Of a stretch of DNA of 64,000 nucleotides, positions 31,323 to 54,100 are shown piece by piece. Numbering within the stretch: the first letter of the stretch is position 1; every line of letters starts with the position of its first letter. The position numbers were made by a program, and so were the translations under genes. The stretch is from NCBI GenBank assembly GCA_016932715.1, contig JAFGCG010000092.1, forward strand, positions 1 to 64,000, written 5' to 3'. Under the pieces are notes generated by a model. It was given only the letters and a program-made list of their open reading frames with translations. It made no database searches and had not been told where the DNA came from. Origin of the DNA: Anaerolineales bacterium (GTDB lineage Bacteria; Chloroflexota; Anaerolineae; Anaerolineales; Villigracilaceae).

Positions 31323-32189
31323 ATGAGTGATCGAGGCCGTGGCAATCCAGCCTGCCCCTATCTCGGGCTGGAAGATGATGCCGATACATCCCTGGCATTC
31401 CCCTCGGTTTGGAACACCTGCCACCGCAGCCGGCGCGTCGTCTCTCCGAGCCTCCAGCACCAGGCTGAATATTGCCTCAGTGAAAATCATCGGAATTGCG
31501 TGGCGTTCCCGGCCGGGCAGGCTACCCTGCCTTTGCCGCATCGTTTACGTGCTTCCCGCCGTCGGACAAGTCTATACGGGCGCAGCCCCTTCCGAGGCCT
31601 GGTTTTCGTTTTCATTGGGATCCTGGTGTTAGCTGGCATAGGCTGGGGATTGTGGGCGCAGGGATATATCCTGCCCACAGGGACTGAAATTCCCTCCCTG
31701 ACGATGACCGTTTTGATGACACCTGTCCCCACCCAGACTACTGCTCTCACCCCTACTCCTACTTCTGCCATGATAGTGACGCCGAAGCCGATATCGACCG
31801 GCGAAGCCGTGCCGAAACGCCAGCTGGATCAGCCGATCGGGAGCGACTATCAGTTTGTGATCCACCGGGTGCTGGACGGTGAAAATTTGAACCAGTACGC
31901 CGCCAAATACAATACCAGTATCGAAGCCATTCTGATGGTCAACTATGATTTCAAAACGCCGTTGTGGGTGGATGCACTGGTGATCATCCCGGTCGGGTTC
32001 ACCAATGTATCCAGCCTCCCGGCTTTCGAAGCCTATGAGGTGCCGCGCGCGGACATGTCTCTGAAGGTGCTGGCACTGGGATTCGGTGTGAGTCTCAAGG
32101 ACCTGCGCTATTACAATGCGATCGGCATGGATGAGTCTCTCCAGGTGGGGGACTGGCTGCTTATTCCCCGTCCCCGGGTGGCGCCGTAG
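31323..32189 (+). CDS. Membrane-anchored LysM-type protein
   Basis: TM GLVFVFIGILVLAGIGWGLWAQG; LysM-like YQFVIHRVLDGENLNQYAAKYNTSIEAILMVN. Confidence 0.7.
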   Translation: MSDRGRGNPACPYLGLEDDADTSLAFPSVWNTCHRSRRVVSPSLQHQAEYCLSENHRNCVAFPAGQATLPLPHRLRASRRRTSLYGRSPFRGLVFVFIGILVLAGIGWGLWAQGYILPTGTEIPSLTMTVLMTPVPTQTTALTPTPTSAMIVTPKPISTGEAVPKRQLDQPIGSDYQFVIHRVLDGENLNQYAAKYNTSIEAILMVNYDFKTPLWVDALVIIPVGFTNVSSLPAFEAYEVPRADMSLKVLALGFGVSLKDLRYYNAIGMDESLQVGDWLLIPRPRVAP

Positions 32190-32208
32190 CATTCACAGTG
32201 AGGTGAAA

Positions 32209-32694
32209 ATGCCTTCCGTCTTATTTGTGTGTACTGCTGACCGTTTCCGTTCGCCCCTCGCGGCGGCTTTGTTCAGGCACCGGCTGCAAGGGGAATCGGA
32301 CGCGCGGGACTGGTCGGTTCGGAGCGCCGGCACCTGGGCGGACCCTGATAAAGTGGTCATTCCACCTACCCGGTGGGTGGCGAATCATTTGCACCTTGAC
32401 CTGGGCGCCCACAAATCCCGACGGATTAACAGGGAGTTACTCGATACGTATGATCTGATCCTTGTGATGGAAAACAACCATCGGGAGGGCCTCCTGGTCG
32501 AGTTTCCCGAAATGGAGAAGCGCCTTTTCCTTCTCTCCGAGGTAGCCGCCGGACGGGCATACAACATTCCGGATCCCCATGTCCAGCCGGGGGATACCTT
32601 TCAGGATGTTGCCGCTGAGTTGTCTGATTTGATCGATAAAGGGTATCATCACATTTGCGATCTGGCGCGCCAGTTGCACGACGGGAGTGGCTAA
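32209..32694 (+). CDS. Low-molecular-weight protein tyrosine phosphatase (arsenate reductase-like)
   Basis: MPSVLFVCTADRFRSPLAAALFRHRL (CX5R) and DPHVQPGDTFQDVAAELSD. Confidence 0.88.
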   Translation: MPSVLFVCTADRFRSPLAAALFRHRLQGESDARDWSVRSAGTWADPDKVVIPPTRWVANHLHLDLGAHKSRRINRELLDTYDLILVMENNHREGLLVEFPEMEKRLFLLSEVAAGRAYNIPDPHVQPGDTFQDVAAELSDLIDKGYHHICDLARQLHDGSG

Positions 32695-32876: not shown

Positions 32877-34064
32877 ATGCCATCCCGCATTGACAACCAC
32901 ACCCTTAGCCAATTGATCTCCGACCACCCACGCGCCGTGGATGGGGCTTCCCTCTCGCCATCAGACTGGCCGCTCCTGCTTCAGGCGGCGCATCAGGAGG
33001 GGGTCGGTCCACTCTTATACTGGCGACTCTCGAAATCCGGAGAACTCGTATCTCTCCCAACAGAGGCTCGAAATTCCCTGCGGGGCATGTATGCCCGCAC
33101 GTGGGCACAGAACCAGAAAATATTCGAGGAACTGAGTGTAATCACACGGCTGTTCCATGAAAAAGGGATCCCGGTGGTGGTCTTGAAGGGCGCCTGTTTC
33201 GCCCTGACGATCTATCCGGACATTGGCTTGCGTCCGATGGGGGATCTCGATGTATTAGTGCCTGCCTCGAAGTTAGCCGAAGCGGTTGAAATTGCAGAAT
33301 CGCTCGGTTACGCAGATACGATTCCGGAAGCCTCTCCGGGCTTGCATGATCTGCTGAGTCACCATGCCTGCCTGCAAAAATCAGGTTCCGGGTCGATTAC
33401 ATTGGAAATCCACAATAGCCTGGTAGCCGATAAAACCTTTGCCTATGCTGTGCCCGTGGATTGGTTTTGGGAGCAAACCGAACCATTGAATGGTTCATCG
33501 AAAAACAGGTTTGAAAACCTGCTTGTGTTAACTCCCACAGCCCAGTTGCTCTATGCTGCCTCACACGCCATGCTGCAGCACGGCGGCGATAAGGCGCCGT
33601 TGCGCTGGTATTATGACCTGGACCAACTCATTCGGTCCTCTGGCAGCCGCCTGGACTGGGACCTGCTCCTCGAGCAGGCACAAAAATTCGCATGGAGTTC
33701 TGCCTTGAAGGCGGCGCTGGCTCAAACGCAGGATTACTTCGGTACTCCTGTCCCGGATACGGTCCGCATCCGCCTATCCCGGCAAACGGATCACCACGAG
33801 TCCCTGGTGAAGAAGAAACAAAGTCAGCCTGGAACGAAAATCCTACTGGAAAATCAGACATTAGCTTCGCTGAACTGGCACGGAAGAGCCAGGCTGGTTT
33901 TAGCGCTCCTTTTTCCCAGCCCGGCGTATATGCGCTGGCGGTACCGATTGAAGAGTTCGTGGTCACTGCCAGTCTATTATCCGTTCCGCTGGTGGGGAAT
34001 TGCCAGGGACGCACTTGCTACAGTGATCGAGCTCCTGAAGAGACAATCTGTCCCGCGAACCTAA
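32877..34064 (+). CDS. Nucleotidyltransferase family protein (PF14907-like), lasso-cluster associated
   Basis: GIPVVVLKGACFALTIYPDIGLRPMGDLDVLVPAS (GD-LD NTase motif); directly upstream of B1/B2. Confidence 0.8.
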   Translation: MPSRIDNHTLSQLISDHPRAVDGASLSPSDWPLLLQAAHQEGVGPLLYWRLSKSGELVSLPTEARNSLRGMYARTWAQNQKIFEELSVITRLFHEKGIPVVVLKGACFALTIYPDIGLRPMGDLDVLVPASKLAEAVEIAESLGYADTIPEASPGLHDLLSHHACLQKSGSGSITLEIHNSLVADKTFAYAVPVDWFWEQTEPLNGSSKNRFENLLVLTPTAQLLYAASHAMLQHGGDKAPLRWYYDLDQLIRSSGSRLDWDLLLEQAQKFAWSSALKAALAQTQDYFGTPVPDTVRIRLSRQTDHHESLVKKKQSQPGTKILLENQTLASLNWHGRARLVLALLFPSPAYMRWRYRLKSSWSLPVYYPFRWWGIARDALATVIELLKRQSVPRT

Positions 34065-34132: not shown

Positions 34133-34423
34133 ATGACCATCAACCTCGACACCCAGATCAGCATCCCCGAAACCGTTTATACCCAGGAGGTCGGCGAGGA
34201 AACCATCCTGCTCGACACCCAGGGCGGGCGTTATTTCAGCCTGGACCCGGTCGGCACGCGCATGTGGCAGCTCCTCCGGGAACATGGCGTGCTGCGCACG
34301 GTCTATGAAACCATTTTGAAGGAGTACGAAGTAACGCCTGAGCAGCTGGAGACGGATCTCCTGGCTTTAGCCGCGAAAATGATCGAGAAGGGCCTCGCCC
34401 GGATCCAGGACGACGCCGAATGA
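34133..34423 (+). CDS. PqqD-family RiPP recognition element protein (lasso B1)
   Basis: QEVGEETILLDTQGGRYFSLDPVGTRMWQLLREHG...LETDLLALAAKMIEKGLARI. Confidence 0.93.
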   Translation: MTINLDTQISIPETVYTQEVGEETILLDTQGGRYFSLDPVGTRMWQLLREHGVLRTVYETILKEYEVTPEQLETDLLALAAKMIEKGLARIQDDAE

Positions 34424-34863
34424 CTGTAACAACTGTGCTTCACAAGTTGAACAGCGCCTCCCGGCTTTCTGCCGAGGATTGGATGCTGTTCCTGCAAGCC
34501 TGGGTCTGGTTGCTGATTTTCGACATCGGTTTGCGCACACGCCCATTTTCGGAATTACAGGCTTTTGCCGCCCGACTGACTTCCCATCCTATCCCATCAC
34601 CCGAGCAAACGGAGAAACAGCTTCGCATGCTGAAGGTCGCTGTTGCCCGTGCGGGCAGCCATCACCTCTACCCAATGACCTGCCTGCGCCGCTCCCTGGC
34701 ATTGCAAAAAATGCTGGCTCAAAGAGGGGTCGCTGCCGAATTGAAGATTGGTGTGTACAAAGAGCTTGACTTGTTGAACGCCCACGCTTGGGTAGAGTGT
34801 CAGGGTAAACCGATAGGTGAACCGGAGAAGGTCATGGACCACTATGTGATGCTGAGGAGGTAG
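34420..34863 (+). CDS. Lasso peptide B2 transglutaminase-like leader protease
   Basis: MTCLRRSLALQKMLAQRGVAAELKIGVYKE...NAHAWVECQGKPIGEP: Cys and His of the B2 fold; 4-bp overlap with B1. Confidence 0.93.
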   Translation: MTVTTVLHKLNSASRLSAEDWMLFLQAWVWLLIFDIGLRTRPFSELQAFAARLTSHPIPSPEQTEKQLRMLKVAVARAGSHHLYPMTCLRRSLALQKMLAQRGVAAELKIGVYKELDLLNAHAWVECQGKPIGEPEKVMDHYVMLRR

Positions 34864-35040: not shown

Positions 35041-35196
35041 ATGGAGACCAAAGACATGATTGATAACGAAAAGAAAGTTTATGCCACGCCTGAATTGGTG
35101 GAGCATGGCGATCTGGGGGAAATGACCCAGGGTGGTGCCGGTGGAGATCCTGAGACACTAGGGGGGACAAATCCAGAAGGGAAGATTCTTCCATAA
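35041..35196 (+). CDS. Lasso peptide precursor 1 (51 aa, not in ORF track)
   Basis: METKDMIDNEKKVYATPELVEHGDLGEMTQ|GGAGGDPETLGGTNPEGKILP: leader motif YxxPxLxxxGxxxxxT, T at -2, Gly1, Glu8; AGGAGAG RBS. Confidence 0.9.
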   Translation: METKDMIDNEKKVYATPELVEHGDLGEMTQGGAGGDPETLGGTNPEGKILP

Positions 35197-35371: not shown

Positions 35372-37078
35372 TTGTTAGTCAGCTGGGCAAGCTCTTCGCC
35401 AGATCCTGTTTTGTTAGATACTGAATGGTCCAGACCGTTGCAACCAAATGGCTTGAGCCTATGGAGCAGCGGATACGTTGCCAACCAGGATGAATTGATT
35501 AGTCGTTATGGGTTGTCCAAGCAATTATCTACGTCAGACTTACTGTTGTTTTTATTTCGAAAAATGGGAGCAACTGCCAGTGCCAAATTGGTAGCTGGAC
35601 CTTGCTCCTGGATGGTCTGGGATCCTGCACAAAAACTTCTGCTTGTTGTTTCTGATCGTATGGGTCTGGCGCCACTCTACTATGCCCAATTTAAGGGATG
35701 TTTGTGGATTGCAGATGATGAAAATGTTCTACTCACAAAAGCCGGGATTCCGCGTCAGTCCAACCCGTCTGCCGTTGTTGCCCAAATTGATTCCCTCTCA
35801 ATGTTGGAAGACGAAACCATCTACAAGGATATTTATAAACTTACACCGGGTACTGTTTGGACTTGCGGCAGTGACCATTCAATCCGTGAAATTTACTGGC
35901 GAGCTGAATTGCAGCCAGTTTTGCGTTTAAAAGACAACCGGGAATACGCTGAAGCGCTCCGTGCCCTGTTGGTCCAGGTGGTGGATGAGCATGTCCCGCG
36001 CAAACAATTTGCACTGACCCTGAGCAGTGGTATGGATAGCAGCAGTATTGCTGGAGCGCTTCGCCTAGCCCGTCCCAGCGATCGTATTCCTAGCATAGGC
36101 CAAATTATGCCAGCACTTCCGGGTAGTAACGAGCAAGAGTGGATTCTGGCGACCAGTCAAAAACTCAACTTGGATTTGACAGAACTGCAGGTCGATCAAT
36201 TTTGGCCATTGAAACCGTCTGGCCCTTGTGAAAATCTCCCTCGAATAACCGCCTATCAGGAAATATGGGGTATCACCTGCCTGGAGGCGCGGAAACAAGG
36301 CGCTCGCATTCTTATTACCGGAGCCATGGGGGATCAATGTTTCGGAAGTTCTATTTGTAGTTATTCTGATCTATTGCTCAACTCGCGTTGGATCGAACTC
36401 GGTCGACAAATTCGGCATGAATGGGTTCAGGGGTATTACATCCGCCCTCCGGATTGGAAAACACCTTTGCGCCGGTCGCTGCGGCCGCTAAAACAATATA
36501 TTGATAATCTGCTTTTACCCCTGAAACAGATGAAGCCTGTTTCCTGGCTGCACCCATCCCAACAAGCTGTTTACGAGCAAGTAAGATACGCCAACCGCAG
36601 GCCATTCAAAATTGGATTGCCCGCCAGGGTAATGCGCTGGTGGCAGATTATAGATCCAGGAAGTCTCCAAAATATCCTGCAATTCCATAAGTTCGCGCAA
36701 AGGCTTGGTATCGAGATGCGCCATCCTCTCTGGGATCATCGCATTCTGGAATTTGTCTTGCAACTTCCAGCTGAGCAAACCTATCAGTCTGGTACTCAAA
36801 AAATCGTCTTGCGCAATGCCATGCGCGGTATATTGCCAGATAAGGTTGTTGAGTTAAGAAAAAAAATAGTGCCATTTGATCTGTTCCATCGCGGTCTACG
36901 TGAACGCAGTGTCGAGCAGGCAATGGATTTGATGACCAATATGAGGCTAGCCGATATGGGATATGTTTTACCCTCCGAGTTGCAAGCCGCCTATCAGCGT
37001 TATCTCAGGGGAGAAACCAACCATCAGAATTTCTTTTATACATTGATGCTTGAATCCCAGGTGCGTGCATGGTATTAA
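35372..37078 (+). CDS. Lasso cyclase 1 (asparagine-synthetase-like, C protein)
   Basis: ALTLSSGMDSSSIAGAL (ATP-PPase), RHPLWDHRILEFVLQLPAEQTYQSGTQKIVLRNAMRGILPDKVVELRKK; degenerate glutaminase half; TTG start. Confidence 0.9.
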   Translation: MLVSWASSSPDPVLLDTEWSRPLQPNGLSLWSSGYVANQDELISRYGLSKQLSTSDLLLFLFRKMGATASAKLVAGPCSWMVWDPAQKLLLVVSDRMGLAPLYYAQFKGCLWIADDENVLLTKAGIPRQSNPSAVVAQIDSLSMLEDETIYKDIYKLTPGTVWTCGSDHSIREIYWRAELQPVLRLKDNREYAEALRALLVQVVDEHVPRKQFALTLSSGMDSSSIAGALRLARPSDRIPSIGQIMPALPGSNEQEWILATSQKLNLDLTELQVDQFWPLKPSGPCENLPRITAYQEIWGITCLEARKQGARILITGAMGDQCFGSSICSYSDLLLNSRWIELGRQIRHEWVQGYYIRPPDWKTPLRRSLRPLKQYIDNLLLPLKQMKPVSWLHPSQQAVYEQVRYANRRPFKIGLPARVMRWWQIIDPGSLQNILQFHKFAQRLGIEMRHPLWDHRILEFVLQLPAEQTYQSGTQKIVLRNAMRGILPDKVVELRKKIVPFDLFHRGLRERSVEQAMDLMTNMRLADMGYVLPSELQAAYQRYLRGETNHQNFFYTLMLESQVRAWY

Positions 37079-38046
37079 GTCTTTCTGATTCATTTTACAA
37101 CTACCGGGTTTATGGTCTGACCATAACCAGCAACCTGCCGCTCGACCCCTGGCTTCCGCTTTCGGAGGAGCCAGCCAGTCTAGCTATTGAAGGTTGGTTG
37201 GCCAGTGAGAACCTGCCTGTTCTCCCGCTTCGTTCCGCTCGTCATACGGAGCAATCCGGAGCACCTCATTCATCTTTCTATCACAATAAAACCTTGCGTT
37301 TAAATATACCAAGAGTGGGTCATTTTCTGATTGCTCAGGATAAAATCCTGGTTCAATTCTCAGCGGATGCAAATTTGGCTTCAGTCTGTGCAAATTTGCT
37401 ATCAACGGCATTATCATTATGGCTTGAGCAGCATAGAACTAGGGTAATCCATGCCTCCTGCCTGGTATATCACGGGAAAGCGGCCGCTTTCATGGCGAAT
37501 AGCACAACTGGCAAATCAACTCTGGCGGCAGCCTTTTTACAGTCTGGTGCCGAATTGCTCAGTGACGATGTTGTTCCAATTGTAGAAACTGCAAATGGTT
37601 TTTTCGCCAGTCCAGGGTATCCAACTGTGCGCTTGTCTGAAGAGCAGATCGAGTATTTCCTGGGTACGCAGGCCAATCTCGCGCGTTGGTTTCCTAAATG
37701 GAGAAAAGCACTGATCCCAATTGGGGAAAACGGCTGGGGCGGCTTTTGTAACCTCTCTCAAAAAATTCAGCGCCTATATGTTTTGAATCGGACACTCAAC
37801 GATCCTGGTGGTCAAGTGCGATTCGAGCCGCTTTCGGATGTCGATTCCGTGCTTTCCTTGATCCGATTTTCCTTTCTTATTCGGGACACATGGGAGATGG
37901 AAATTGCAGCGGAAAGAATGGCGTTTTTTGCACGCTTAGTGGCACAAACAGGTGTAACTCGCTTGACCTACTCATCGGGATACGAACACCTGACTGAGGT
38001 TATTCGGCAGGTTTTTGGGGATATGGATAAAAACGAGGTTAAATGA
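37069..38046 (+). CDS. HPr kinase-like protein (lasso tailoring kinase homolog) 1
   Basis: AAFMANSTTGKSTLAAAFLQSGAELLSDDVVPI (P-loop + DD). Confidence 0.85.
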   Translation: MVLSLSDSFYNYRVYGLTITSNLPLDPWLPLSEEPASLAIEGWLASENLPVLPLRSARHTEQSGAPHSSFYHNKTLRLNIPRVGHFLIAQDKILVQFSADANLASVCANLLSTALSLWLEQHRTRVIHASCLVYHGKAAAFMANSTTGKSTLAAAFLQSGAELLSDDVVPIVETANGFFASPGYPTVRLSEEQIEYFLGTQANLARWFPKWRKALIPIGENGWGGFCNLSQKIQRLYVLNRTLNDPGGQVRFEPLSDVDSVLSLIRFSFLIRDTWEMEIAAERMAFFARLVAQTGVTRLTYSSGYEHLTEVIRQVFGDMDKNEVK

Positions 38047-38178: not shown

Positions 38179-41100
38179 ATGAAAACAAAATTCAATTTCA
38201 GGAAGTGGCTGCGCAGCCGGAATGGTCTGATCAGCATGATCAGTGCACTGCTGGTGTTGATCGTGGTGGCAGTTATTTTCGGCGGCGGCCTGAGTGGATT
38301 GACAGGTACCGCGGGAGTGCCGGCGGAACTGCCGCCGGGCGCGAATTGCTTGCCTACCTGTGATGTCACCGATGGGCGTATGTTTACGATCGCGAGCGAT
38401 GGGCTTGTAACATTGGCTGGACAGTCCATTTTTATTAAAATTGCTGTTCCTGAATCGGTCGCCTCGTTTGATATCGGCATTTTTGATGGCGATACATCCG
38501 GGATTTGGGATTTAAACTCCGGTCCATTGACCTATACACTATATGCCGACCCTACAGCTGCTCAGGTGGGGACAGAACAAGTCGTTCAGTGGCTGGGGGA
38601 TAGTATGGCAGATAATGACTGGACCAATTTCACCATTGATCAAGACCCTCGGGCACAGGCACCCAGCGGGGATTATTTCTACTATCTGCGTGTGGACCTT
38701 CCCAATGCTGCCACAGCAACAAAGATCTTTAGCAGCTTCAAAGTTCGCTCAACTTCGCCGATCGAATTGGCTACCAACCAGTCTTTCGGTTATATGGCAC
38801 CTCTCAGTTCGACGAATCAAGGTATCATTTATCCTTCTTATCCGGACCTCACCCAGACAACGTTTGATGGAACCTGGGATATGTACCTGAACGTGCCTGT
38901 GTCCCAGTCATCTTTTGTGATTTGGGATGGCGACTTTGATTATGGGAGCTATGACTGTAGTGTGAATGACACCGACGATCCAGACACACCGAACGACACA
39001 CACCCTGCCTGGGCCGCACCCAATTCTGACGTTCTTGAAGGAGTTGCTGTCTCAACCAATCCTTGTAAAGATTCAGCAGGTGCCAAAATCACAGCAGCGA
39101 ATGGTCAGACCACGACCACTGGTCAGCCAAGTGATGACAATGTATACGCAGCATACCGAAGGGACGCACCAGTTACTTATGATGTCATCGATCCGAATGG
39201 AAATGTCTATCACAATGCTAATCCATCTGGAAACACAGAGTGGGAACAATTCCTGATCTCGTCGGATCACTCTGTTGCAGCCGATCACTACACAGACGCC
39301 CTCCTTCCTGCCGGGACGTACCACGTTCGCATTACCGGGCTGGATCTGTCAAATTTGAACGCCTGGCATCTGATCTATGACGCTGTCTGCGTTTACGAAG
39401 ACGGCACTCCCTGTGTGCCAGTGCTGCGTCCCTACAAGATCGGGGATACGGTCTGGGCGGACACCAATGGCAATGGTGTTCAGGACGCGGGCGAGGCTGG
39501 CATTGCAGGCGTGACGGTTACGCTGCTCGACTCTTTCGGGAACCCTGTGCCGAATGGCACAGCGACCACCGATGCCAGCGGGAATTACTTCTTCAAAGTG
39601 GAGGCTGGGGCCTACACTGTCCAGGTCGACGCCGCGAACTTCGAGGCGGAGGGCGTCCTGACAGGATATGCTCCGACAACCTCGGGCGGGAACTCCCAAA
39701 CCAACACGGTGACCACCGACAATGTTCTCACGTATGACTTTGGCTATAATGTTGCCCCGGCTTCGCTGGGTGATTTCGTCTGGAATGACCTGAATGGTAA
39801 CGGTATCCAGGAGGACGGCGAAGGGGGACTCGCGGGCGTCACGGTCAACCTGCTCGGCAGCGACGGAACGACTGTGGCTGCCACCACGACCACCGACGCC
39901 GCGGGCAGCTACAGCTTCACCGAGCTTCTGCCTGGCACATACTATGTCCAGGTTGTAGCACCGGCGGGACAGGTCTTCACGACAGCCGATGCAGGCAGCG
40001 ATGATGCCAAAGACAGCGATGTCGATGCCACCGGAAAGACCGCCGCGATCTCGTTGAGCGCCGGCGAGACAAATACCTCCGTGGACGCGGGCTTGCTAGA
40101 CGCTTTAGCCTGTCCCGCCAACCTGGTCCTGAACCCGAGCTTCGAAGAGAACAAAGGCTCACCGCCCAAGTCTTGGAAGTACGGCACCGCTGGACCTGTC
40201 GGTGTGCCGGTTGTGGATGGCTTGAATGCTGGTTACATCTCCGGCTCGGGTACAATGTATCAGGCAGTGAATGTGACCACTGGCAACAGCTACACGTTGA
40301 CCTTCTACTCAGGCTCGCACAAACCGTCGAAACAGACTGTCAAGCTCCAGTATTTCAACAAAAGAGGCAAAGGCATCGGGACAGCGGCGACACACATCAT
40401 CACGAGTGACTTGGAGGACAGCGGCTTTGGCGGACCATACACCCTGATGCTCGATCCGGCGCCATCCGACGCGACCTCCCTGAGGATCATGGTCAGCGCC
40501 AACAGGTTCGACTATGCCAAGGTGGATATGCTCTGCCTGCAGCCGACTACCCCGCCGGCCACTGCCTCGATTGGCGACCTTGTCTGGAAAGACACGAACA
40601 ACAACGGCGTTCAGGATGATGGCGAACCCGGCATGGCAGATGTCACCGTCAACCTGCTCGGCAGCGACGGAAAGACTGTGGCTGCCAGCACAACCACCGA
40701 CGCCGCGGGCAATTACAGTTTCACCGAGCTTCTGCCTGGCACGTACTACGTCCAGGTCGTGGCGCCGGCAGAGACATCCTTCACGAAAGCCAACGCGGGC
40801 GGCGACGATGCCAGGGATAGCGATATCGACCCCGCCAGCGGAAAGACCGCTGCCATTAGCCTGAAGGTTGGTGAGGCAAATAATACGGTGGACGCGGGTC
40901 TCAAAGAGTCGCTGAGCCTGTCCTGTCCCGCCAACCTGGTCCTGAACCCGAGCTTCGAAGAGAACACCGGCTCCCCTCCGAGGTCCTGGACGAACGGCAC
41001 CGCCGGACCCGTCGGTGTACCGGTCGTGGATGGCAAGAACGCCGGCTACATCACCGGCTCGAAGACCATGTATCAAAGTGTGGATGTAACGGCCGGCAGC

Positions 41101-41817
41101 AGCTACACCCTGACCTTCTACTCCGGGTCGCATGTTCCATCGATCCAGACGGTGAAGATGCAATACTTCGCAGGCGACTCAGCCATCGGGGAGCCGGCGA
41201 CGCACACCATCACGGACGACCTGGAAATCGTCGGCTTCGGTGGACCCTACAGCCTCACGCTCGGTCCGGCGCCATCCGATGCAACTTCCTTGCGGATTAT
41301 GGTCAGCGCCAACAACAAGGACTATGGCAAGGTCGATAGTTTGTGTCTGGAAGCGACGGAGCCTGTGGAGCCGCCTCCGCCTCCGCCCATGTGCACGACT
41401 GGCAACACCTACAAGGTAGAGACGACGAATAATCCATTCTATAGCGTGAAGTTTAACTTCGCCTCTGGCACGGAAGTCAAGGATGGCGGCTACGACATCT
41501 TCAAGTACACGCTGCCGGCGGATGTGGTCGCGGCGATGACCAGCATGCAGGTCGAAGTCAAGGCAGCGACAGACTCCCGCACCTACAACCTGACCTGTGA
41601 TTTCACCAGCCCGGAAGGCTGCGGCTCGCCTGTGGGCGACGATGCTTACGCGGTCTCGTTCGACGGCGCTGTCGACAACGGCGATGGCACATACACGCTG
41701 AAGTTCAAAGTGTATGTCTATGGTGAGCACGGCCTGAGTCATGTCTCCTTCAGCCTGCCTGAAGGGCAGACAGCCGGCGGCCTGACCGGGAGTTACACCA
41801 CGGAGGGCTGCGAGTAA
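38179..41817 (+). CDS. Large surface protein with SdrD B-like repeats and DUF642-like CPANLVLNPSFEEN modules
   Basis: N-terminal TM; IGDTVWADTNGNGVQDAGEAGIAGVTVTLL type repeats x3; duplicated NPSFEE module x2. Confidence 0.85.
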   Translation: MKTKFNFRKWLRSRNGLISMISALLVLIVVAVIFGGGLSGLTGTAGVPAELPPGANCLPTCDVTDGRMFTIASDGLVTLAGQSIFIKIAVPESVASFDIGIFDGDTSGIWDLNSGPLTYTLYADPTAAQVGTEQVVQWLGDSMADNDWTNFTIDQDPRAQAPSGDYFYYLRVDLPNAATATKIFSSFKVRSTSPIELATNQSFGYMAPLSSTNQGIIYPSYPDLTQTTFDGTWDMYLNVPVSQSSFVIWDGDFDYGSYDCSVNDTDDPDTPNDTHPAWAAPNSDVLEGVAVSTNPCKDSAGAKITAANGQTTTTGQPSDDNVYAAYRRDAPVTYDVIDPNGNVYHNANPSGNTEWEQFLISSDHSVAADHYTDALLPAGTYHVRITGLDLSNLNAWHLIYDAVCVYEDGTPCVPVLRPYKIGDTVWADTNGNGVQDAGEAGIAGVTVTLLDSFGNPVPNGTATTDASGNYFFKVEAGAYTVQVDAANFEAEGVLTGYAPTTSGGNSQTNTVTTDNVLTYDFGYNVAPASLGDFVWNDLNGNGIQEDGEGGLAGVTVNLLGSDGTTVAATTTTDAAGSYSFTELLPGTYYVQVVAPAGQVFTTADAGSDDAKDSDVDATGKTAAISLSAGETNTSVDAGLLDALACPANLVLNPSFEENKGSPPKSWKYGTAGPVGVPVVDGLNAGYISGSGTMYQAVNVTTGNSYTLTFYSGSHKPSKQTVKLQYFNKRGKGIGTAATHIITSDLEDSGFGGPYTLMLDPAPSDATSLRIMVSANRFDYAKVDMLCLQPTTPPATASIGDLVWKDTNNNGVQDDGEPGMADVTVNLLGSDGKTVAASTTTDAAGNYSFTELLPGTYYVQVVAPAETSFTKANAGGDDARDSDIDPASGKTAAISLKVGEANNTVDAGLKESLSLSCPANLVLNPSFEENTGSPPRSWTNGTAGPVGVPVVDGKNAGYITGSKTMYQSVDVTAGSSYTLTFYSGSHVPSIQTVKMQYFAGDSAIGEPATHTITDDLEIVGFGGPYSLTLGPAPSDATSLRIMVSANNKDYGKVDSLCLEATEPVEPPPPPPMCTTGNTYKVETTNNPFYSVKFNFASGTEVKDGGYDIFKYTLPADVVAAMTSMQVEVKAATDSRTYNLTCDFTSPEGCGSPVGDDAYAVSFDGAVDNGDGTYTLKFKVYVYGEHGLSHVSFSLPEGQTAGGLTGSYTTEGCE

Positions 41818-42848: not shown

Positions 42849-42880
42849 TCAAATTTTTGTTGTTGCATGTCGAGGCTAAC

Positions 42881-45800
42881 ATGAAAGATCATTCCCGTTC
42901 CATTTTTCATTTTGTTCTGTTATTCATTTTCATCTTTTGCCAGGTGACCGTTCAGCCTGCATCTGCGGCCGTCACCGCTCGTTCAGAGAGCGAAACGGTT
43001 TCTCACGGCGCGCAAAGCGTCCCATCGCGACTCTCGGAAGCCAGGCCGGGACCCGCGCCGGCTGAGAAAGGTTCGGTGATTGTCCCCGCGGAGAGCTTCA
43101 AATCGACTGACTCGGCTCTGCAAATCGCAGCGGATTTGCAGTTGCTGGCATACACCCTGCCATCCTACCCCGTTTATAGTGAACAAAACAATTTAAGCGT
43201 CGAGCCATTGGTTGCTTACAACCTGGTGGTTGATTCCAATGTCCTGGCGCCCTCTTCGTATGGTCCTTCTGCGGCAACCTTCGGTGCCAGGTACTGTAAC
43301 ACCGGCTCCAGCGATCTGACGGACGTTTGGGCGTATATTGGCAACTACGATTCGGATTATAACGGTACGCTCGGAGACACTGTTCCCGGCTCCTTCCCCA
43401 GACGAAGTGAGACGGGACCGGCCTACGACCCGGCTGCATTTGCGTCCGCGTATGGTGCAACGAGCACGAATCCACTGGTCGGTTCCACTCTCACCGATTA
43501 TGGCGCAACGAGTACACCGTTTGCTCTGCACCTGGCATCCGGGACGACCCCACCCGAAGTGGACGCCTCGCGCTACATTGGCACCCTGGCCCCCGGGGAA
43601 TGTAAAACGGAATACTGGATGATTACGTATCCGCGCAAAGCGTTCAACGGCGGCAGCTGGATAGATGTCACCGGCGGTGTGAAACCGGAGGATGACCTCT
43701 GGCTGCCCTATTTCTTCTGGGGCACCTCTACCAGCGGTGCGACCACCGCGACCTCCTATCGCTGGAATGCTGTTACCATGCGCAACGAGATTTCAGCCGC
43801 TGCCAATAAGATCTGGCCAAATGGCGACAATAAGGTTCCTGACCAATATGTGGAAGCGATCGCACAGCTGGTAGGCTGGGATACGCTGACTCCCAGCGGC
43901 ACGGGCAGTGTCTATCCGGGCGATACGGTCGTCAGCCAGGGCATCTGGTACGACCTCGGCAACGTGGGCGCCGGCTTTGATAATAATGGAGACTTCGTCC
44001 CTGATCGCAATGTCTGGCTTCAACCCATTGGCGATGCGTCCGGATATGATCCCGGTTGTTTTCGCCTGGTGCGGACGTACGGCCTGGTCATTGTCAAACT
44101 GAATAATGGTACAGAGCAGCTCATTCCGTTTGTGGATCAGATGTATTTCGAGAACATTCCGGAAAATAATATTGGCGTTGTCGGTCTGGTCTACTATGAA
44201 TATGCAGCCCTGGACGGGATCTGTACTGCAAATTTGACGCCTTACCAGGAAGCGGCATCGGGTTATGATAATGAAAAATTCAACGCCGATTACGGCGCCG
44301 GCATCCCTCCCCTGCAGAGCCGGGAAAGCAACATGACCCTGGATAAGACAGGTCCGAACTCGATTGGTCTCAACGATACCATCGATTACTCGTTGACCTT
44401 TACCCTGCCGGATATCGATGACGATCCTGCCAATACAACCACGGTCATCATCGGCCAACCCTCTTATGGCATGCCGTTGACATATTCCGATGCCGTGCCG
44501 GTGGGGCTGCAGTATGTCGCCAATTCCGCCAGTACCACAGTGGTCATGTCTGCCAACTATGCGGCAGGGGATATCCCTGCCACATTATGGCATTCCAAAG
44601 ATGGCGGCGCGACCTGGATCCTGGGCGACCCCGGTAATTACACAAGCACCTCCACCAGTGACCAGTTGATTCTGCAATGGAGATTGGAGGATGGCGTCAC
44701 CAGTCCCGCCAGTGGAGCCGCGTACACCGGGACGGTCCAATTCCAGGCAGTTGTTCCGGGTACATATCCTTCGGTCAGGGTGGAGAACGAAGCCTGCCTG
44801 AAGATCGGACAAGGTCCGGGCTTTACGTGCGATGAGCATACAACAGTTGTAACAGGCAACTCGTCCATTACCGGGCTCGTTTGGCGGGATGATGCGATCT
44901 CGAGCGGCGTGCTGGGTAACGCCATCCAGGATGGGACCGAGGCGGGTATTCCCTCTGTGACAGTTAATCTATATTGGGATAACAATGGAGATGGTGATTA
45001 TACCGATGCAGGAGATTTCCTGTACGCGACGACCACCTCCATGAATTACGCCATTGTAGACGGCTATGTCGATGTGGATGGCGGCGGGATCAGTTCGAGC
45101 GATGATGCGACGCTGTCGGGGGTCAGCATTATCGACGGCGGGCTCGACCTCAATGGCGATGGTGTCGTCAATACAAACGATGATGGGTTTTTCGGCGGCT
45201 ATACGGTCTATGACGGGCGCCTGGATGTCAGCCGGAATGGTACCGTCGGTACGGAAGATGACGGCACGCTGGCAGGCGTCTATAACTTTGGCAGCCTGCC
45301 CGCCACAACCAGCATCTCCGCGCGTTATATCGTTGTAGTGGATCAAGGGGATAGCGATATTCCCACTGGCTATGGTCCTACGACCCGCACTTCCTATGCA
45401 GGTATAAATCTTGCTGCCGGTACGGCTTACGGGGATGCTGCGGATGCCTCGGAGCCGAGTGATTTTGGCTTTGGTCCGGCGCTTGACATCGATAAATATA
45501 TTTCGCCCACATCCTATATCGTAGGCGATACGATGGCGTATACCATCAACGTTACCAACCTTCTGCCCGGCGCCGGGGATGGTACCTCAACCTGTTCCTA
45601 CCCGGTCTGGGCCTCGCGCGCTATCAACGATAACTCGGAAGTTCCAAATGGGTCTTCGAATAATAATGGCCGCTGGCATAACACAGGCAATAATTTTGGC
45701 AGCGGGGCGGAGCCGGTTTATATTACCGGTCGTCCGGATGGATTGCGCGCCTATACCGATATGGCCAACAGCAATAACTACGTGGGCCTGACGGGCTATA

Positions 45801-48800
45801 ACCTCGGTGCGCAGGCTGGAAACATCACTTCCGTTAAGTTCGTCGTGTATGCCTATGAGTATGAAGATACTCAGGGCGATGCGTTGATCGTAGATCTCTA
45901 CTACAACAACAGCCTGCTCGCTCCTGCCGATACATATTCCTATGATGGTACATATTTTAGTCAGCCTGTGGGTTCGCTGTATGTGATCGAAGCCGATATC
46001 ACATCCCTGCGAACCTGGACCTGGAGTGATTTTTCGAGCGAATTGACGGAAATGCGCCTGACCGGGGATAAGGATGGCGGCACGCTTGGAGACTACCAGG
46101 TGGACGCGGCCGGTTTTATCATCACGACCGATGGTACCTGCGGCGGCGCCTCCCAGACTCTCAACCCCGTCCCCCTGACTGATACGTTCGATGACAGTTA
46201 TTTTGATTTTATTTCTGCCGACCCGCCTGTTTCATCTTCAGGCACGGGAACTCTCACCTGGAATAATGTCGGTCCGCTTTACCCCGGGCAGACACGCACG
46301 ATCACCGTGTATATGCGTGCCCAGGCGACCGGAACCGCGCCAGGCACAACCAATACCGCCACCAGCACCAACGCCAGGTTCTCGAACGGTTTGCCCGCCA
46401 ATTCACCCGTGTCGGATACTGCCGCGGTCACGATTTCCGCCAATACGAACACACGTTCGTTAACCGGTGTCGTGTTCGATGACAACAATACCAATGGCTG
46501 GCAGGGTTCCCTGTGGACTGCCGGTGGCTCTGGTTACGATACCGGTGATGTGGGGATTCAATATATCCCGGTGGATCTTTATGGTTGTGTTGACACAGTT
46601 ACAGGTGCACTGATCACGAATGAAGGCAACAACCAAAGTTGTTCGGTGGCAGGCGGCACATGGCGCCTGTTGCGAAGTACCTCCACCTCCCCGGATGGTG
46701 CTTACACTTTCGGTAACCTGGCGCAGGGTTATTACCGGGTTCATGTGCAATCCTCGTTGATCGTTGGCACGCTGACGGCAGATGTGAACCAGTCTGCAGC
46801 CGGTGTGTGCAGCGGCGTCTCCTGTGACAGCTGGTCCAATGGTGAGTACGACTATCTCAATGCGGCAACCTTCGTTGGTGATGTGGATAATTTCACTGAC
46901 GTGACGCGCGTCAATTTTGGCTACGACGTTCCAACCGGCGCTTATGACATCGGCGACCTGGTCTTCTTCGACTGGGATGGTGATGGAGTCCAGGACGCGG
47001 AAGACGAGCCGATCCCGAACGTGACCATGCGCCTGCTGGCTGCCGACGGCACGTACCTCGACGACACTGATACGAGCGGCATTTATGGCTTTGCAGATCG
47101 TATCCCGGCGTACTATACGGTCGAAGTTGACACCAGCACACTGCCATCCGGATTGGTGCAGACGGAAGACCCGGATTCCACGATGGATAACAGGAGCAGT
47201 TTCTCGCTGACAGCCGACAGGCTTGATGTTGACTTTGGCTACCAACCCTATGGCTCCGGAACGATTGGCGACACTGTTTTCAAAGATATTAATGGAAATG
47301 GCACCCAGGATGGCACCGGCGAGACCGGGATCGCCGGGGTTACCGTCCAATTGCAGGTGGATTGGGATAACAATGGTACGTATGTGACGATCGCTACGGA
47401 CACCACCGATGCGAATGGTCACTATCTGTTCACCGGCCTGCCTCAGGGAACCTACCGTGTCTCGATCGATCTAAGCTCCAATGCTGCTGTGATCCCGGAT
47501 GATAGCTTTGACAACAATTATTACCCCAGCAATGGCACGGATACGGGGACCGTGGTCTACATGGATAAGACCCTGGCGACCTCCACCTCAAGCGACCTCA
47601 CAGCCGATTTCGGCTTCGCGCCGCCGGCATCCATTGGCGATACAGTCTATCAGGATGTGAATCGCGACGGCACACAGGATACGGGCGAGCCGGGCATCAA
47701 CGGGGTCACTGTTACCCTCTATACCTTTACCGATTCCAATGGCAACGGCCGCTACGATCCGAGCGAAAGCGGAACCCTGGTCTCCACTGGACAGACTGCA
47801 GTGACTGCGACTGTCGGTGGGAAAGATGGCATCTATCAATTCGACGGACTGGAACCGGGATACTACGTTGTTCAGGTCACGCCTCCGGCGGGTTCCGTTT
47901 TGACGGGCGATCCCAACACCGACGGTTTCTCCTGCGATGACCTCAGCGAGCCGCCGGGCGCCGGAGAGCCAAGCGTTAATCTGTGCGACAACCGGGATGG
48001 CATGCGCCTGTATAACGGGACCAGCTACACGGGCGCGGACTTCGGCTATTACCTGTCCGGCTCATTCGGTGACAGGCTCTGGATCGACGTGGACAATGAT
48101 GGCATCTCGGATGCTGGGGAGCGCGGCATCTCCAATGTCACTGTCAATTTGTATTCCTATACGGATAACAATAACAACAACATATTCGACGCCGGCGATG
48201 TGCTGGGCGCGCTGACCTCGTCGGTTGTGACGAACGAGAACGGGAATTACATGTTCACAAATGTCCCGGACGGCAAGTATGTTGTTCGCGTGGATGTAGC
48301 CGATCCCGATATCGCAACTCTCATCACGAACGGGTTGGCGCAGACGTATGACCCGGACGGGGTGAATGACAACGAAACCAGTGTCACCCTCTCCGCTGGC
48401 GCGGTGACCCATACCGGCGGCTGTACCACAACCCCGAATGGCTGTGACGGCGAGTCCGACGCCCTCTACCTGGACGCGGATTTTGGTTATGACTACAGCG
48501 GTGACGGAGCGCTGAGCGGCACGATTTGTCTGGAAACCCTCGACAACGGAATTTGCGGCACCGGCGCCACCGGCGTGGAATCAACGGAGAGCGCCTACGA
48601 TACTGTAACGGTATACCTCTATCGCTGGATAGATGCTGATAGTGATGGCGATATCGATCCGGGCGAAACGACCCAGTTTGGTGCAACGCAGACGGGTCCG
48701 AATGGCGATTACTCCTTCACGGACCTGCCGGATGGTTACTACTACATTGTGGCGATCGGCGCACCCCAATCCGGGCTTGCCCTGAATACCGACGCATCAG

Positions 48801-51800
48801 ACCTGCCGGAAGTGGGCGATGACACACTGCTGTACGAAGATGTTGTCCCCACCACGAACATGGATGGCACCGTTCTTTCCGTCTATCAGATCGTCGAAGT
48901 GCCTGCAAGTGACCCGGTCGTCGAGAATGTCGACTTTGCTTTCAGTCTCGACGGCGCCTTCGACTTTGGTGATTTACCTGCCAGTTATGCGACAACGTTG
49001 GAGGGTACGCCCGATGGACCTCGACACGAACAGCCTGCTGGCGGCTATACACTTTATTTTGGTACAAGCCCTGACGTTGAAGCCAATGGGAATCCCACCC
49101 TGGCTGCCAGCGGTGATGGCGCGGATGAGGATGGCGTCCTTCTCCCCAGTGGTGGGCTGAACACCAGCTGGGCAGACGCCGACGGCGGCACGCTCGAGTT
49201 CAATGTTGTCGGTTCCGGCTGGCTGGTCGGCTGGATCGACCTGAACCAGGACGGTGATTTCGCCGACGCGAACGAAATGGTGGTGAACCAGTCGGTCAGC
49301 ACTGGCACACTGAGTGTGAATATCGCTTCCCTGTCGAACCTGGCTGATGGTTCGTACTACGCCCGCTTCCGCCTGTTCACCGCCCAGCCGACTATTCCGG
49401 TACTGGCGTACTCTGGCGCGACCACAGATGGCGAAGTGGAGGATTATCGCTTTGATATCAACGGGGGCGCGCCCACACCCGTTACGTTGTCCTACTTCTA
49501 TTCGAGGCGAAAAGGGAGTACTGTCAGCTTTGAATGGTCTACCGCTACCGAGACGGGCAATGTTGGATTCAACTTATACGTCCAGGGAAAAGATGGATTG
49601 GTTCAGCTGAACGGCGAGTTGATCCCATCGAAAGTGATCGACTCGCTCGACCGCCAGGACTATTCCTTCAGCATCGATGTGGCTGGCAGCCAGTTCTACA
49701 TCGAAGATGTCAGCGTGCTGGGCGAGACCGAACTGCATGGTCCGTTCCAGCTGGGACGCATACATGGCAGCCGGCAGGCAGCAGACAGGATCGTTCAAAA
49801 GACGATTTCAGCAGAGCATATCGAGAAGGTCACTACACGTTCCGCGGCCCTGCGGAAGAATTTGAAGGTCCCGGCAGCCGCCCGGAAAGCGCCGGCCTGG
49901 CTCTGGTTCCAGAACGAACTGCAATTGAATACTACTTTCAATCTGAAAGTGAATGAGACAGGTATCTACCGGGTTACCTATGAAACGTTGAAGGCTGCCG
50001 GCCTTGACCTGAATGGTGTCCCGATCACGAAAGTGACCATAACCAATCGCGGCAGGCAGATTCCGGTCTTTGTGGCGGGCAAGAGCAAATTTGGCCCGGG
50101 CAGCTTCATCGAATTCTATGGCGAGGCGCTGGATACGATCTACACCGATACCAATATTTATACGCTGCAAGTTAGCAGGACGCGTGCCAGCCGGGTCAAA
50201 GAAGTAAATGCCAACCCTGCGAAGAAGGTAATTCCCTCGACTTCTTACATCCATACCTTGACGGTGAACAATCAGCGCGCCTATGCCAATTATGCTCCCG
50301 GTGAGGATGCCTGGTACGACACCCGCATGCTGGTATACACCACTCCCAAGACCTGGAAAATCCCGTTCCAGGTAAACGGGTTGGCAAACGCCTCGGCTCC
50401 TGCGGCGCTCGACCTGGTCGTCTGGGGTGTGACAGATTGGCCGCAAAGCCCCGATCATCATCTGATCGTGAGTGTCAATGGAACGACCGTCGCGGATCAG
50501 ACCTTCAATGGGCTGGTGGAGAAGAATATCGTAGTCACTCTTCCGGCTGGTGTGCTGCATGAAGGGGAGAATCTGCTAGAGCTGAGCCTGCCCGGAGATA
50601 CGGGTGTGAAATACGATATGGTCAATCTCGACAAGTTCAGTTTGACCTATCAGCGTTCCCTGCAGGCTGTCGATGGGCGGCTAACTTTCGAGGCTGCGGG
50701 CAAAGCCCTCAGGGTAACCAATCTGCCTGGCAAAAACGTGGTTGTATACCGCATGAGCGCAGATGGAACTCTCGTGCGCCTGAAGAAGGTCCAGGTACAG
50801 GCATCGGGCAAGACCTATACAGCCACATTTGCCGGAACCGGGAATAAGGTCGCGAAGTATTTCGTCACGACGACGGACGCGCTGTACAGTCCCGGTGTCG
50901 AGGCGACGCGCCTGGACGCGGACCTGGACCGGCCCGCCCAATACCTGATCATCTCTCACCCTGATTTCATCGACGGGTTACAGCCGCTCGTGCGGGCGCG
51001 TCAGGCGCAGGGATTGTCCGTCAGCGTGGTGGATGTGACCGATGTGTATGCACAATATACAGGCGGTATCTTTGATCCACAGGCTATCAGGGATTACATT
51101 GCCTTTGCAGCCAGGAGGCTTGGCACCGAATACGTCCTGCTGGTCGGCGGCGACACCTATGATTATCGCAACTACCTGGGTCGCGGCACCCTTAGCTTCA
51201 TACCCTCGCTGTACATCACAACAGGGGATGTGGCAAAATTTGTCCCGGTCGATCCACTCTATGCCGATGTGAACAATGACAATGTGCCCGACCTGGCAAT
51301 CGGTCGTTTCCCGGTCCGGACTACGGCGGAACTCGAGTTAATGGTCAAGAAGACATTGGCGTATGCAGGCAAGGATTATGGCCGGACCGCCTTGTTCGTC
51401 TCGGATGAATATGACGGGATTGTGTCCTACAAATATATTAATACCAACCTGGCTGCAGGCTTGCCGGCAGACTGGTCCGTCAAAAGTATCCACCTGGATG
51501 ACGTGGATGTGTCAACTGCCCGGTCGCAGATCGTCTCGAGCATGAACGATGGGGTCGCGCTGGTGACCTTCACCGGTCACTCCAGCTCGACGGTCTGGAC
51601 GTTCAGAGACCTGTTCAATATCAAAAACGCCAAGGCACTGACAAATCATGGCAGACCGTTTGTCGTTGTGCAGTGGGGCTGCTGGAACACCTATTACGTG
51701 GATCCGGTCAACAACTACCTGGTCCAGGGCTTCCTGTTTTCGGGAGATCAGGGCGCGGCTTCCGTGCTGGGCGCTTCCACGCTCACCGATTCCAAATCGG

Positions 51801-51970
51801 AGGAACTGCTCGGAGATCTGCTGACCCCGCGGATGGTCACGCCGGGCACTTCTATCGGTTTTGCTTTGCGGGATGCCAAGATCGAACTGGCGCAGACTCA
51901 CCCCGAGCTGCTGGATGTCCTGCTTGGATGGTCGCTCATGGGTGACCCGGCATTAAGTGTGACACCCTAG
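42881..51970 (+). CDS. Giant secreted multidomain protein: SdrD-like repeats, dockerin-like insert, GEVED-like domain, C-terminal C25 gingipain-like peptidase
   Basis: Signal peptide MKDHSRSIFHFVLLFIFIFCQVTVQPASAA; many (I/V)GDxV(F/Y)xDxNxDGxQDxGE repeats; DLPASYATTLE...GPRHE GEVED-like; VALVTFTGHSSSTVW / VVQWGCWNTYY and terminal LMGDPALSVTP typical of C25. Confidence 0.88.
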   Translation: MKDHSRSIFHFVLLFIFIFCQVTVQPASAAVTARSESETVSHGAQSVPSRLSEARPGPAPAEKGSVIVPAESFKSTDSALQIAADLQLLAYTLPSYPVYSEQNNLSVEPLVAYNLVVDSNVLAPSSYGPSAATFGARYCNTGSSDLTDVWAYIGNYDSDYNGTLGDTVPGSFPRRSETGPAYDPAAFASAYGATSTNPLVGSTLTDYGATSTPFALHLASGTTPPEVDASRYIGTLAPGECKTEYWMITYPRKAFNGGSWIDVTGGVKPEDDLWLPYFFWGTSTSGATTATSYRWNAVTMRNEISAAANKIWPNGDNKVPDQYVEAIAQLVGWDTLTPSGTGSVYPGDTVVSQGIWYDLGNVGAGFDNNGDFVPDRNVWLQPIGDASGYDPGCFRLVRTYGLVIVKLNNGTEQLIPFVDQMYFENIPENNIGVVGLVYYEYAALDGICTANLTPYQEAASGYDNEKFNADYGAGIPPLQSRESNMTLDKTGPNSIGLNDTIDYSLTFTLPDIDDDPANTTTVIIGQPSYGMPLTYSDAVPVGLQYVANSASTTVVMSANYAAGDIPATLWHSKDGGATWILGDPGNYTSTSTSDQLILQWRLEDGVTSPASGAAYTGTVQFQAVVPGTYPSVRVENEACLKIGQGPGFTCDEHTTVVTGNSSITGLVWRDDAISSGVLGNAIQDGTEAGIPSVTVNLYWDNNGDGDYTDAGDFLYATTTSMNYAIVDGYVDVDGGGISSSDDATLSGVSIIDGGLDLNGDGVVNTNDDGFFGGYTVYDGRLDVSRNGTVGTEDDGTLAGVYNFGSLPATTSISARYIVVVDQGDSDIPTGYGPTTRTSYAGINLAAGTAYGDAADASEPSDFGFGPALDIDKYISPTSYIVGDTMAYTINVTNLLPGAGDGTSTCSYPVWASRAINDNSEVPNGSSNNNGRWHNTGNNFGSGAEPVYITGRPDGLRAYTDMANSNNYVGLTGYNLGAQAGNITSVKFVVYAYEYEDTQGDALIVDLYYNNSLLAPADTYSYDGTYFSQPVGSLYVIEADITSLRTWTWSDFSSELTEMRLTGDKDGGTLGDYQVDAAGFIITTDGTCGGASQTLNPVPLTDTFDDSYFDFISADPPVSSSGTGTLTWNNVGPLYPGQTRTITVYMRAQATGTAPGTTNTATSTNARFSNGLPANSPVSDTAAVTISANTNTRSLTGVVFDDNNTNGWQGSLWTAGGSGYDTGDVGIQYIPVDLYGCVDTVTGALITNEGNNQSCSVAGGTWRLLRSTSTSPDGAYTFGNLAQGYYRVHVQSSLIVGTLTADVNQSAAGVCSGVSCDSWSNGEYDYLNAATFVGDVDNFTDVTRVNFGYDVPTGAYDIGDLVFFDWDGDGVQDAEDEPIPNVTMRLLAADGTYLDDTDTSGIYGFADRIPAYYTVEVDTSTLPSGLVQTEDPDSTMDNRSSFSLTADRLDVDFGYQPYGSGTIGDTVFKDINGNGTQDGTGETGIAGVTVQLQVDWDNNGTYVTIATDTTDANGHYLFTGLPQGTYRVSIDLSSNAAVIPDDSFDNNYYPSNGTDTGTVVYMDKTLATSTSSDLTADFGFAPPASIGDTVYQDVNRDGTQDTGEPGINGVTVTLYTFTDSNGNGRYDPSESGTLVSTGQTAVTATVGGKDGIYQFDGLEPGYYVVQVTPPAGSVLTGDPNTDGFSCDDLSEPPGAGEPSVNLCDNRDGMRLYNGTSYTGADFGYYLSGSFGDRLWIDVDNDGISDAGERGISNVTVNLYSYTDNNNNNIFDAGDVLGALTSSVVTNENGNYMFTNVPDGKYVVRVDVADPDIATLITNGLAQTYDPDGVNDNETSVTLSAGAVTHTGGCTTTPNGCDGESDALYLDADFGYDYSGDGALSGTICLETLDNGICGTGATGVESTESAYDTVTVYLYRWIDADSDGDIDPGETTQFGATQTGPNGDYSFTDLPDGYYYIVAIGAPQSGLALNTDASDLPEVGDDTLLYEDVVPTTNMDGTVLSVYQIVEVPASDPVVENVDFAFSLDGAFDFGDLPASYATTLEGTPDGPRHEQPAGGYTLYFGTSPDVEANGNPTLAASGDGADEDGVLLPSGGLNTSWADADGGTLEFNVVGSGWLVGWIDLNQDGDFADANEMVVNQSVSTGTLSVNIASLSNLADGSYYARFRLFTAQPTIPVLAYSGATTDGEVEDYRFDINGGAPTPVTLSYFYSRRKGSTVSFEWSTATETGNVGFNLYVQGKDGLVQLNGELIPSKVIDSLDRQDYSFSIDVAGSQFYIEDVSVLGETELHGPFQLGRIHGSRQAADRIVQKTISAEHIEKVTTRSAALRKNLKVPAAARKAPAWLWFQNELQLNTTFNLKVNETGIYRVTYETLKAAGLDLNGVPITKVTITNRGRQIPVFVAGKSKFGPGSFIEFYGEALDTIYTDTNIYTLQVSRTRASRVKEVNANPAKKVIPSTSYIHTLTVNNQRAYANYAPGEDAWYDTRMLVYTTPKTWKIPFQVNGLANASAPAALDLVVWGVTDWPQSPDHHLIVSVNGTTVADQTFNGLVEKNIVVTLPAGVLHEGENLLELSLPGDTGVKYDMVNLDKFSLTYQRSLQAVDGRLTFEAAGKALRVTNLPGKNVVVYRMSADGTLVRLKKVQVQASGKTYTATFAGTGNKVAKYFVTTTDALYSPGVEATRLDADLDRPAQYLIISHPDFIDGLQPLVRARQAQGLSVSVVDVTDVYAQYTGGIFDPQAIRDYIAFAARRLGTEYVLLVGGDTYDYRNYLGRGTLSFIPSLYITTGDVAKFVPVDPLYADVNNDNVPDLAIGRFPVRTTAELELMVKKTLAYAGKDYGRTALFVSDEYDGIVSYKYINTNLAAGLPADWSVKSIHLDDVDVSTARSQIVSSMNDGVALVTFTGHSSSTVWTFRDLFNIKNAKALTNHGRPFVVVQWGCWNTYYVDPVNNYLVQGFLFSGDQGAASVLGASTLTDSKSEELLGDLLTPRMVTPGTSIGFALRDAKIELAQTHPELLDVLLGWSLMGDPALSVTP

Positions 51971-54092: not shown

Positions 54093-54100
54093 TTGCGTGA

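Follow-up and report, generated by a model that had tools for sequence, protein, structure and literature searches.

We propose, from comparison of its gene, its neighbors, and its relatives, that the HPrK-like protein K1 belongs to a distinct clade of lasso-precursor kinases, is active, and phosphorylates an internal hydroxyl of the precursor A1, likely that of Thr13, and that the nucleotidyltransferase N may decorate the product, a reading whose chances we put at roughly even. The predicted A1 core offers K1 no C-terminal Ser to act on, and the main interest of the case is that it yields a testable prediction of the phosphorylation site. If that prediction is true, a single kinase fold serves as many as three sites (the C-terminal Ser and ring residue 3, and perhaps also the loop), the siting of phosphate in lasso peptides becomes readable from gene clusters, and a new position becomes available for engineering.

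The DNA analyzed here (the window, 64,000 nucleotides) lies on contig 143 of a 4.94-Mb genome that is 94.7% complete in 195 contigs. Glycosyltransferase-like genes are abundant in the window, and a region with polysaccharide-type genes precedes a compact N-B1-B2-A1-C1-K1 run. A second set, C2-A2-K2, lies about 14 kb beyond the first, after two large SdrD_B-repeat proteins. The genes of the two sets are as follows.

32883 to 34064, forward strand: N, nucleotidyltransferase of the NTP_transf_5 family (PF14907, 1e-53)
34133 to 34423, forward strand: B1, PqqD-type leader-binding protein (RRE) (PF05402, 1.9e-15)
34420 to 34863, forward strand: B2, leader peptidase (NF033537 lasso_biosyn_B2, 81.2 bits, cutoff 33)
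35056 to 35196, forward strand: A1, lasso precursor, with an alternative ATG upstream at 35041 (lasso_leader_L3, 21.7 bits, cutoff 19)
35372 to 37078, forward strand: C1, asparagine-synthetase-like lasso cyclase (PF00733, 9e-32; lass_lactam_cya, 7e-55, below the model cutoff)
37069 to 38046, forward strand: K1, HPrK-like lasso kinase homologue of 325 amino acids, whose ATG start overlaps the last codons of C1
52016 to 53869, forward strand: C2, second lasso cyclase (lass_lactam_cya, 2.2e-110, below the model cutoff)
53880 to 54092, forward strand: A2, second lasso precursor (lasso_leader_L3, 23.2 bits)
54101 to 54946, forward strand: K2, second HPrK-like kinase, with the P-loop GESGQGKS

No second copy of B1 or B2 was recognized within the window, and the two A-C-K sets may therefore share the single pair; since their predicted sites differ and a single B1/B2 pair apparently serves both, they would provide a built-in comparison of how such kinases choose a residue. 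The two SdrD_B-repeat proteins that separate the sets are encoded at 38179 to 41817 (1,212 amino acids) and 42878 to 51970 (about 3,030 amino acids), and the larger carries a C25 (gingipain-type) peptidase domain at its end. Immediately upstream of N is a gene of the low-molecular-weight protein-tyrosine-phosphatase family (32116 to 32694), which could be a polysaccharide gene or could act on phosphorylated products.

A1 has the leader YATPELVEHGDLGEMTQ and the core GGAGGDPETLGGTNPEGKILP (35131 to 35193, forward strand), the latter assigned from the reading frame and the leader spacing common to relatives. We inferred the cleavage site from the distance to the leader Tyr, 17 residues as in most relatives, which puts Thr at −2. 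A Gly1-Glu8 ring is predicted for this core, which ends in ILP, so that its C-terminal residue is Pro, has Ala at position 3, and contains Thr9 and Thr13 as its only hydroxyl residues. The original prediction, that the cognate core of K1 lacks a C-terminal Ser and offers no hydroxyls other than these two, was thus borne out. Furthermore, A1 and A2 were the sole matches above the cutoff in a whole-genome search for lasso leaders, which means that no hidden Ser-ending precursor was detected.

K1 matches the Hpr_kinase_C model (6e-5, 23.1 bits) and HprK_rel_A (1.2e-7, 31.1 bits) below their curated cutoffs of 33.3 and 200, respectively, and its score of 19.9 bits against the HPrK equivalog TIGR00679, far under the cutoff of 240, sets it apart from full-length HPrK/P. 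A PDB sequence search with K1 gave a single match (E of 0.82), and a fold search was needed. The AF2 model of K1 is confident (pLDDT 84.8, pTM 0.85), and its top Foldseek matches were PEPCK and HPrK/P (3tqf and 1kkl), which resemble K1 in fold and in the P-loop region; the match of K1 to this family and fold is not due to chance. The P-loop ANSTTGKST and the SDD motif reported earlier are present, at residues from 143 and at 165 to 167, and we can extend that description in that positions 1 and 4 of the P-loop are Ala and Thr, not Gly; K1 therefore departs from the GxxGxGKS P-loop of paeninodin-type kinases. The catalytic elements map as follows.

37450 to 37452, forward strand: His128, counterpart of BsfK His148, 15 residues ahead of P-loop position 1, as in BsfK (PMC10368454)
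37495 to 37518, forward strand: P-loop ANSTTGKS (residues 143 to 150), with Lys149 and Ser150 kept and with Ala and Thr at positions 1 and 4
37564 to 37569, forward strand: Asp166-Asp167, counterpart of BsfK Asp186-Asp187, invariant among close homologues

His128, Lys149, Ser150, Asp166, and Asp167 are invariant in all 12 of the closest relatives (12/12), and K1 shares only 27 to 34% identity with its relatives. K1 thus shares with lasso-precursor kinases in the broad sense an HPrK-like fold, the His-Lys-(Ser)-Asp-Asp set, and A, B1, B2, and C encoded alongside it.

In paeninodin and its relatives, it is the C-terminal Ser of the precursor that is phosphorylated (reviewed in PMC9266682 and PMC8498205), and the known lasso kinases use the linear precursor, with BsfK being greatly accelerated by B1 (PMC9266682, PMC10368454). 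PadeK, ThcoK, SyanK, and PsmK resemble K1 in being HPrK-like, in having His-Lys-Asp-Asp, and in being encoded with A, B1, B2, C, and sometimes an NTP transferase (PMC9266682, PMC8498205), but paeninodin-type kinases differ from it in their Ser-ended precursors, in the P-loop GxSGAGKS of most sampled Bacillota members, and in belonging to another clade. The original prediction implied that lasso kinases always use the C-terminal Ser, a rule contradicted by BsfK of Bradymonas sediminis (2023), which phosphorylates core Ser3 of an Asp-ended precursor and still acts when Ser3 is replaced by Thr (PMC10368454), and by LppK (2026), which phosphorylates Ser3 of a linear peptide and refuses S3T (PMC13381572). 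A lasso kinase whose substrate lacks a C-terminal Ser is therefore not new in itself. BsfK, like K1, is a lasso-cluster kinase with a precursor lacking a C-terminal Ser and an NTP transferase in the cluster, and its important residues (H148, K169, S170, D186, and D187) are matched in K1 by H128, K149, S150, D166, and D167 at the same His-15-P-loop-16-Asp-Asp spacing; unlike K1, it targets ring residue Ser3, where core 1 has Ala3, and keeps all three P-loop glycines (PMC10368454). LppK is likewise an HPrK-like kinase with an RRE and an NTP transferase, but its product is linear and its leader is cut by a signal-peptidase-like enzyme; LppK-related lasso clusters are embedded in capsular polysaccharide loci (PMC13381572). 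In a literature search that covered few subscription papers, we found no report of a clade combining a loop-region site with the loss of the first P-loop Gly.

To place K1, kinase homologues were drawn from genomes at three taxonomic levels (class, 396; family, 152; phylum, 400) and from a genome-contig scan; canonical kinases came from K1 matches and from that scan, whereas a tblastn search of plasmids with the paeninodin core gave no match. Further sampling of the class containing the Nodosilinea genome and of the order containing the Chromatiaceae genome added only one genome to the clade. In the resulting unrooted tree of 76 kinases, which was built with the P-loop columns removed and without BsfK, PadeK, or PsmK among its rows, K1 falls in a 21-row clade (support 98/83) of mostly Chloroflexota, some cyanobacteria, Chromatiaceae, and a few others, whereas the Bacillota paeninodin-type kinases form a separate 14-row clade (100/99) with which K1 does not group. 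K1 is a long branch whose nearest row is that of locus L040, a join between two long branches that has weak SH-aLRT support, and K2 branches immediately outside the K1 clade (83/80, not starred). The original prediction named a phylogenetic position outside lasso kinases as evidence against it; this holds in part, as K1 is outside the paeninodin-type clade but groups with kinases encoded in lasso clusters. P-loop position 1 is Ala or Ser in 21/21 members of the K1 clade and Gly in every Bacillota member, while the clade keeps the Lys and the Asp-Asp, so that the change looks like a clade trait rather than the decay of a single gene. On one cyanobacterial contig (L063, 5290 to 6981), a K1-clade kinase region and an FkbM-type methyltransferase domain share one open frame, and the kinase ORFs of L063 and L107 both carry extra upstream sequence.

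Thirteen precursors of the clade were readable, and we compared them with representative Bacillota paeninodin-type cores (n = 8) and with other kinase-linked lasso cores (n = 23). A C-terminal Ser is present in 0/13 of the K1-clade precursors, in 8/8 of the Bacillota cores, and in 7/23 of the others; the last residues of the 13 are P, R, F, F, E, F, V, P, T, T, R, P, and T. Inside the core, Ser or Thr occurs at positions 13 to 15 in 12/13 clade members versus 5/23 other kinase-linked cores (Fisher, 6e-5) and a Gly-Ser/Thr pair occurs within positions 10 to 17 in 10/13 versus 4/23 (Fisher, 9e-4), figures that serve as a guide and not as a test because both windows were selected post hoc (the cores are also few and partly related). 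With the same reservation, shuffling residues within each core gave 4.0 cores with a Gly-Ser/Thr pair expected versus 10 seen (0/5,000 shuffles as high), and with one row per lineage the pair was seen in 7/10 versus 3.05 expected (p of 0.008) and Ser/Thr at 13 to 15, a weak signal, in 9/10 versus 5.71 expected (p of 0.024). The A1 version of the clade pair is Gly12-Thr13. The closest-looking core, TGNQGLQDSEGGSTPETF from L033, aligns with that of A1 without gaps and has an acidic residue at 8, Ser/Thr at 9, Gly11-Gly12-Ser/Thr13, and Pro-Glu in common with it. Against the pattern, the core of L040, the row nearest to K1 in the tree, has no hydroxyl at 13 to 15. A shared hydroxyl at core position 3, of the BsfK/LppK type, was rejected for the K1 clade, as Ser/Thr is found there in only 2/13 cores and core 1 has Ala3. 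Elsewhere, a lasso-like precursor near an HPrK-like kinase on a Butyrivibrio plasmid (L055, 8844 to 9059, reverse strand) appears to end in Arg, and precursors without a C-terminal Ser may thus also occur in Clostridia.

Taking the known systems as a guide, we infer that B1 would hold the A1 leader while K1, with a nucleotide as donor, would phosphorylate linear A1 at an internal hydroxyl, most likely that of Thr13 in the predicted loop, within the Gly12-Thr13 motif. B2 would take off the leader after phosphorylation, and C1 would close the Gly1-Glu8 ring. N is of the kind that in pseudomycoidin adds a hexose to the phosphorylated peptide (PMC8498205), so the phosphate may be further decorated, with N perhaps putting a sugar or similar group on it. 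The two candidate acceptors in core 1 are as follows.

35167 to 35169, forward strand: Thr13 codon, favored candidate (Ser/Thr at core 13 to 15 in the clade; Gly-Ser/Thr dyad)
35155 to 35157, forward strand: Thr9 codon, second candidate (Ser/Thr at position 9 in 4/13 clade cores)

The sequence pattern of the clade favors Thr13 over Thr9, a distinction absent from the original prediction, which had K1 acting on an internal Thr, on another substrate, or by a different chemistry; the first of these is the strongest remaining option, in view of the internal Gly-Ser/Thr of the clade, whereas a different chemistry is without direct support and the catalytic residues are intact. One point against the Thr13 reading is that changing P-loop position 1 of BsfK to Ala (G163A) left the protein poorly soluble and less active, whereas G166A (position 4) was nearly normal (PMC10368454), and K1 has Ala at position 1. 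The low identity between K1 and its relatives also counts against this reading, and the internal Gly-Ser/Thr pair may instead be conserved because it shapes the loop or aids threading.

The second set appears to follow a different pattern. The A2 core, GGSPGAGDSGVGDPRYPLGFHGDFLPPPEF, has Ser3 and Ser9 and ends in EF, with a C-terminal Phe. Three cores orthologous to A2 (L233, L238, and L240) begin GGS-x-G-x-GDSG, show no variation at Ser3 or Ser9, and have a K2-like kinase alongside. The K2-type loci are as follows.

53880 to 54946: the window
6827 to 7897: L233
3685 to 11175: L238
7149 to 8235: L240

As K2 has a canonical P-loop, A2 has Ser3 and Ser9, and the three relatives are alike, K2 is a candidate Ser3 (or Ser9) kinase, which suggests that K2-type kinases act on one of these two residues.

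These observations bear on the other substrates that K1 might have. Phosphorylation of Thr9, directly after the ring-closing Glu8, seems rather unlikely: Thr9 is the sole other hydroxyl of core 1, the L033, L035, and L064 cores have an acidic residue 8 followed by Ser/Thr 9, and Asp8-Ser9 is found in each of the four K2-type cores, but a hydroxyl at position 9 occurs in only 4/13 clade cores, compared with 12/13 at positions 13 to 15, and a bulky phosphate beside the ring-closing residue could hinder cyclization. That K1 acts not on A1 but on Ser3 or Ser9 of A2, or on a molecule belonging to the polysaccharide locus around it, we regard as clearly unlikely. A2 does have the Ser3 that BsfK and LppK use, apparently one B1/B2 set serves two A-C-K sets, and glycosyltransferase-like genes are plentiful around K1; however, A2 adjoins its own kinase, K2, in a pair also present in L233, L238, and L240, where both Ser3 and Ser9 are retained, and K1 overlaps C1 and neighbors A1.

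It is quite improbable that K1 is dead as a kinase or carries out another phosphate or nucleotide chemistry. The Gly missing from P-loop position 1 in 21/21 clade members would fit such a reading, as would the PRTase-fold and RRE fusion encoded near the kinase gene in eight clade loci (see below), but the invariance of the Lys, the Ser, both Asp residues, and His128 in the 12 closest relatives argues against decay, the fusion is absent from the window genome, and the near-normal activity of BsfK G166A and G168A implies that P-loop glycines are partly dispensable (PMC10368454). Finally, K1 might be a paeninodin-type kinase whose target is the C-terminal Ser of a precursor that went undetected in another part of the genome. 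Something could be missing from an assembly of 195 contigs and 94.7% completeness, but with A1 and A2 as the only leader matches above the cutoff, K1 outside the Bacillota clade, and 0/13 clade precursors Ser-ended, we consider this most improbable. We therefore retain phosphorylation of A1 at an internal hydroxyl, likely Thr13, as the preferred reading.

The phosphoribosyltransferase (PRTase)-like ORF found in eight K1-clade loci has a C-terminal PqqD/RRE domain in all but one or two cases and lies between the precursor and the kinase wherever both could be read. The ORFs are as follows.

L036, 15803 to 16810, forward strand: PRTase-RRE
L035, 10125 to 11192, reverse strand: PRTase-RRE
L038, 8026 to 9006, forward strand: PRTase-RRE
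L064 (Chromatiaceae), 4018 to 4944, forward strand: PRTase-RRE
L066 (Nodosilinea), 4506 to 5711, forward strand: PRTase-RRE
L068, 811 to 2799, forward strand: PRTase-RRE
L067, 1776 to 2834, forward strand: PRTase-RRE, matching in its N-terminal part only
L034, 80 to 886, forward strand: PRTase-RRE, apparently frameshifted or cut

A search of the window genome for such a fusion found none, so that it does not explain K1, and we rejected it as K1's own partner. We found no report, in the literature searched, of a PRTase-RRE fusion as a lasso tailoring enzyme or of a phosphoribosyl or phospho-sugar group on a lasso loop. All six fusions that were aligned share an invariant PRPP-type motif, VVVDD, and in an AF2 model (pLDDT 76) the C terminus resembles the lasso RRE TbiB1 and the rest resembles xanthine-guanine phosphoribosyltransferases. 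This suggests that some clade members couple the kinase to sugar-phosphate chemistry. More tentatively, and with considerable doubt, we raise the possibility that an unreported lasso kinase clade lacking the first P-loop Gly modifies a loop Gly-Ser/Thr and that several relatives couple to it an RRE-fused PRTase that would furnish the loop with a phosphoribosyl or phospho-sugar group; the fusions hint at a possible new lasso tailoring reaction.
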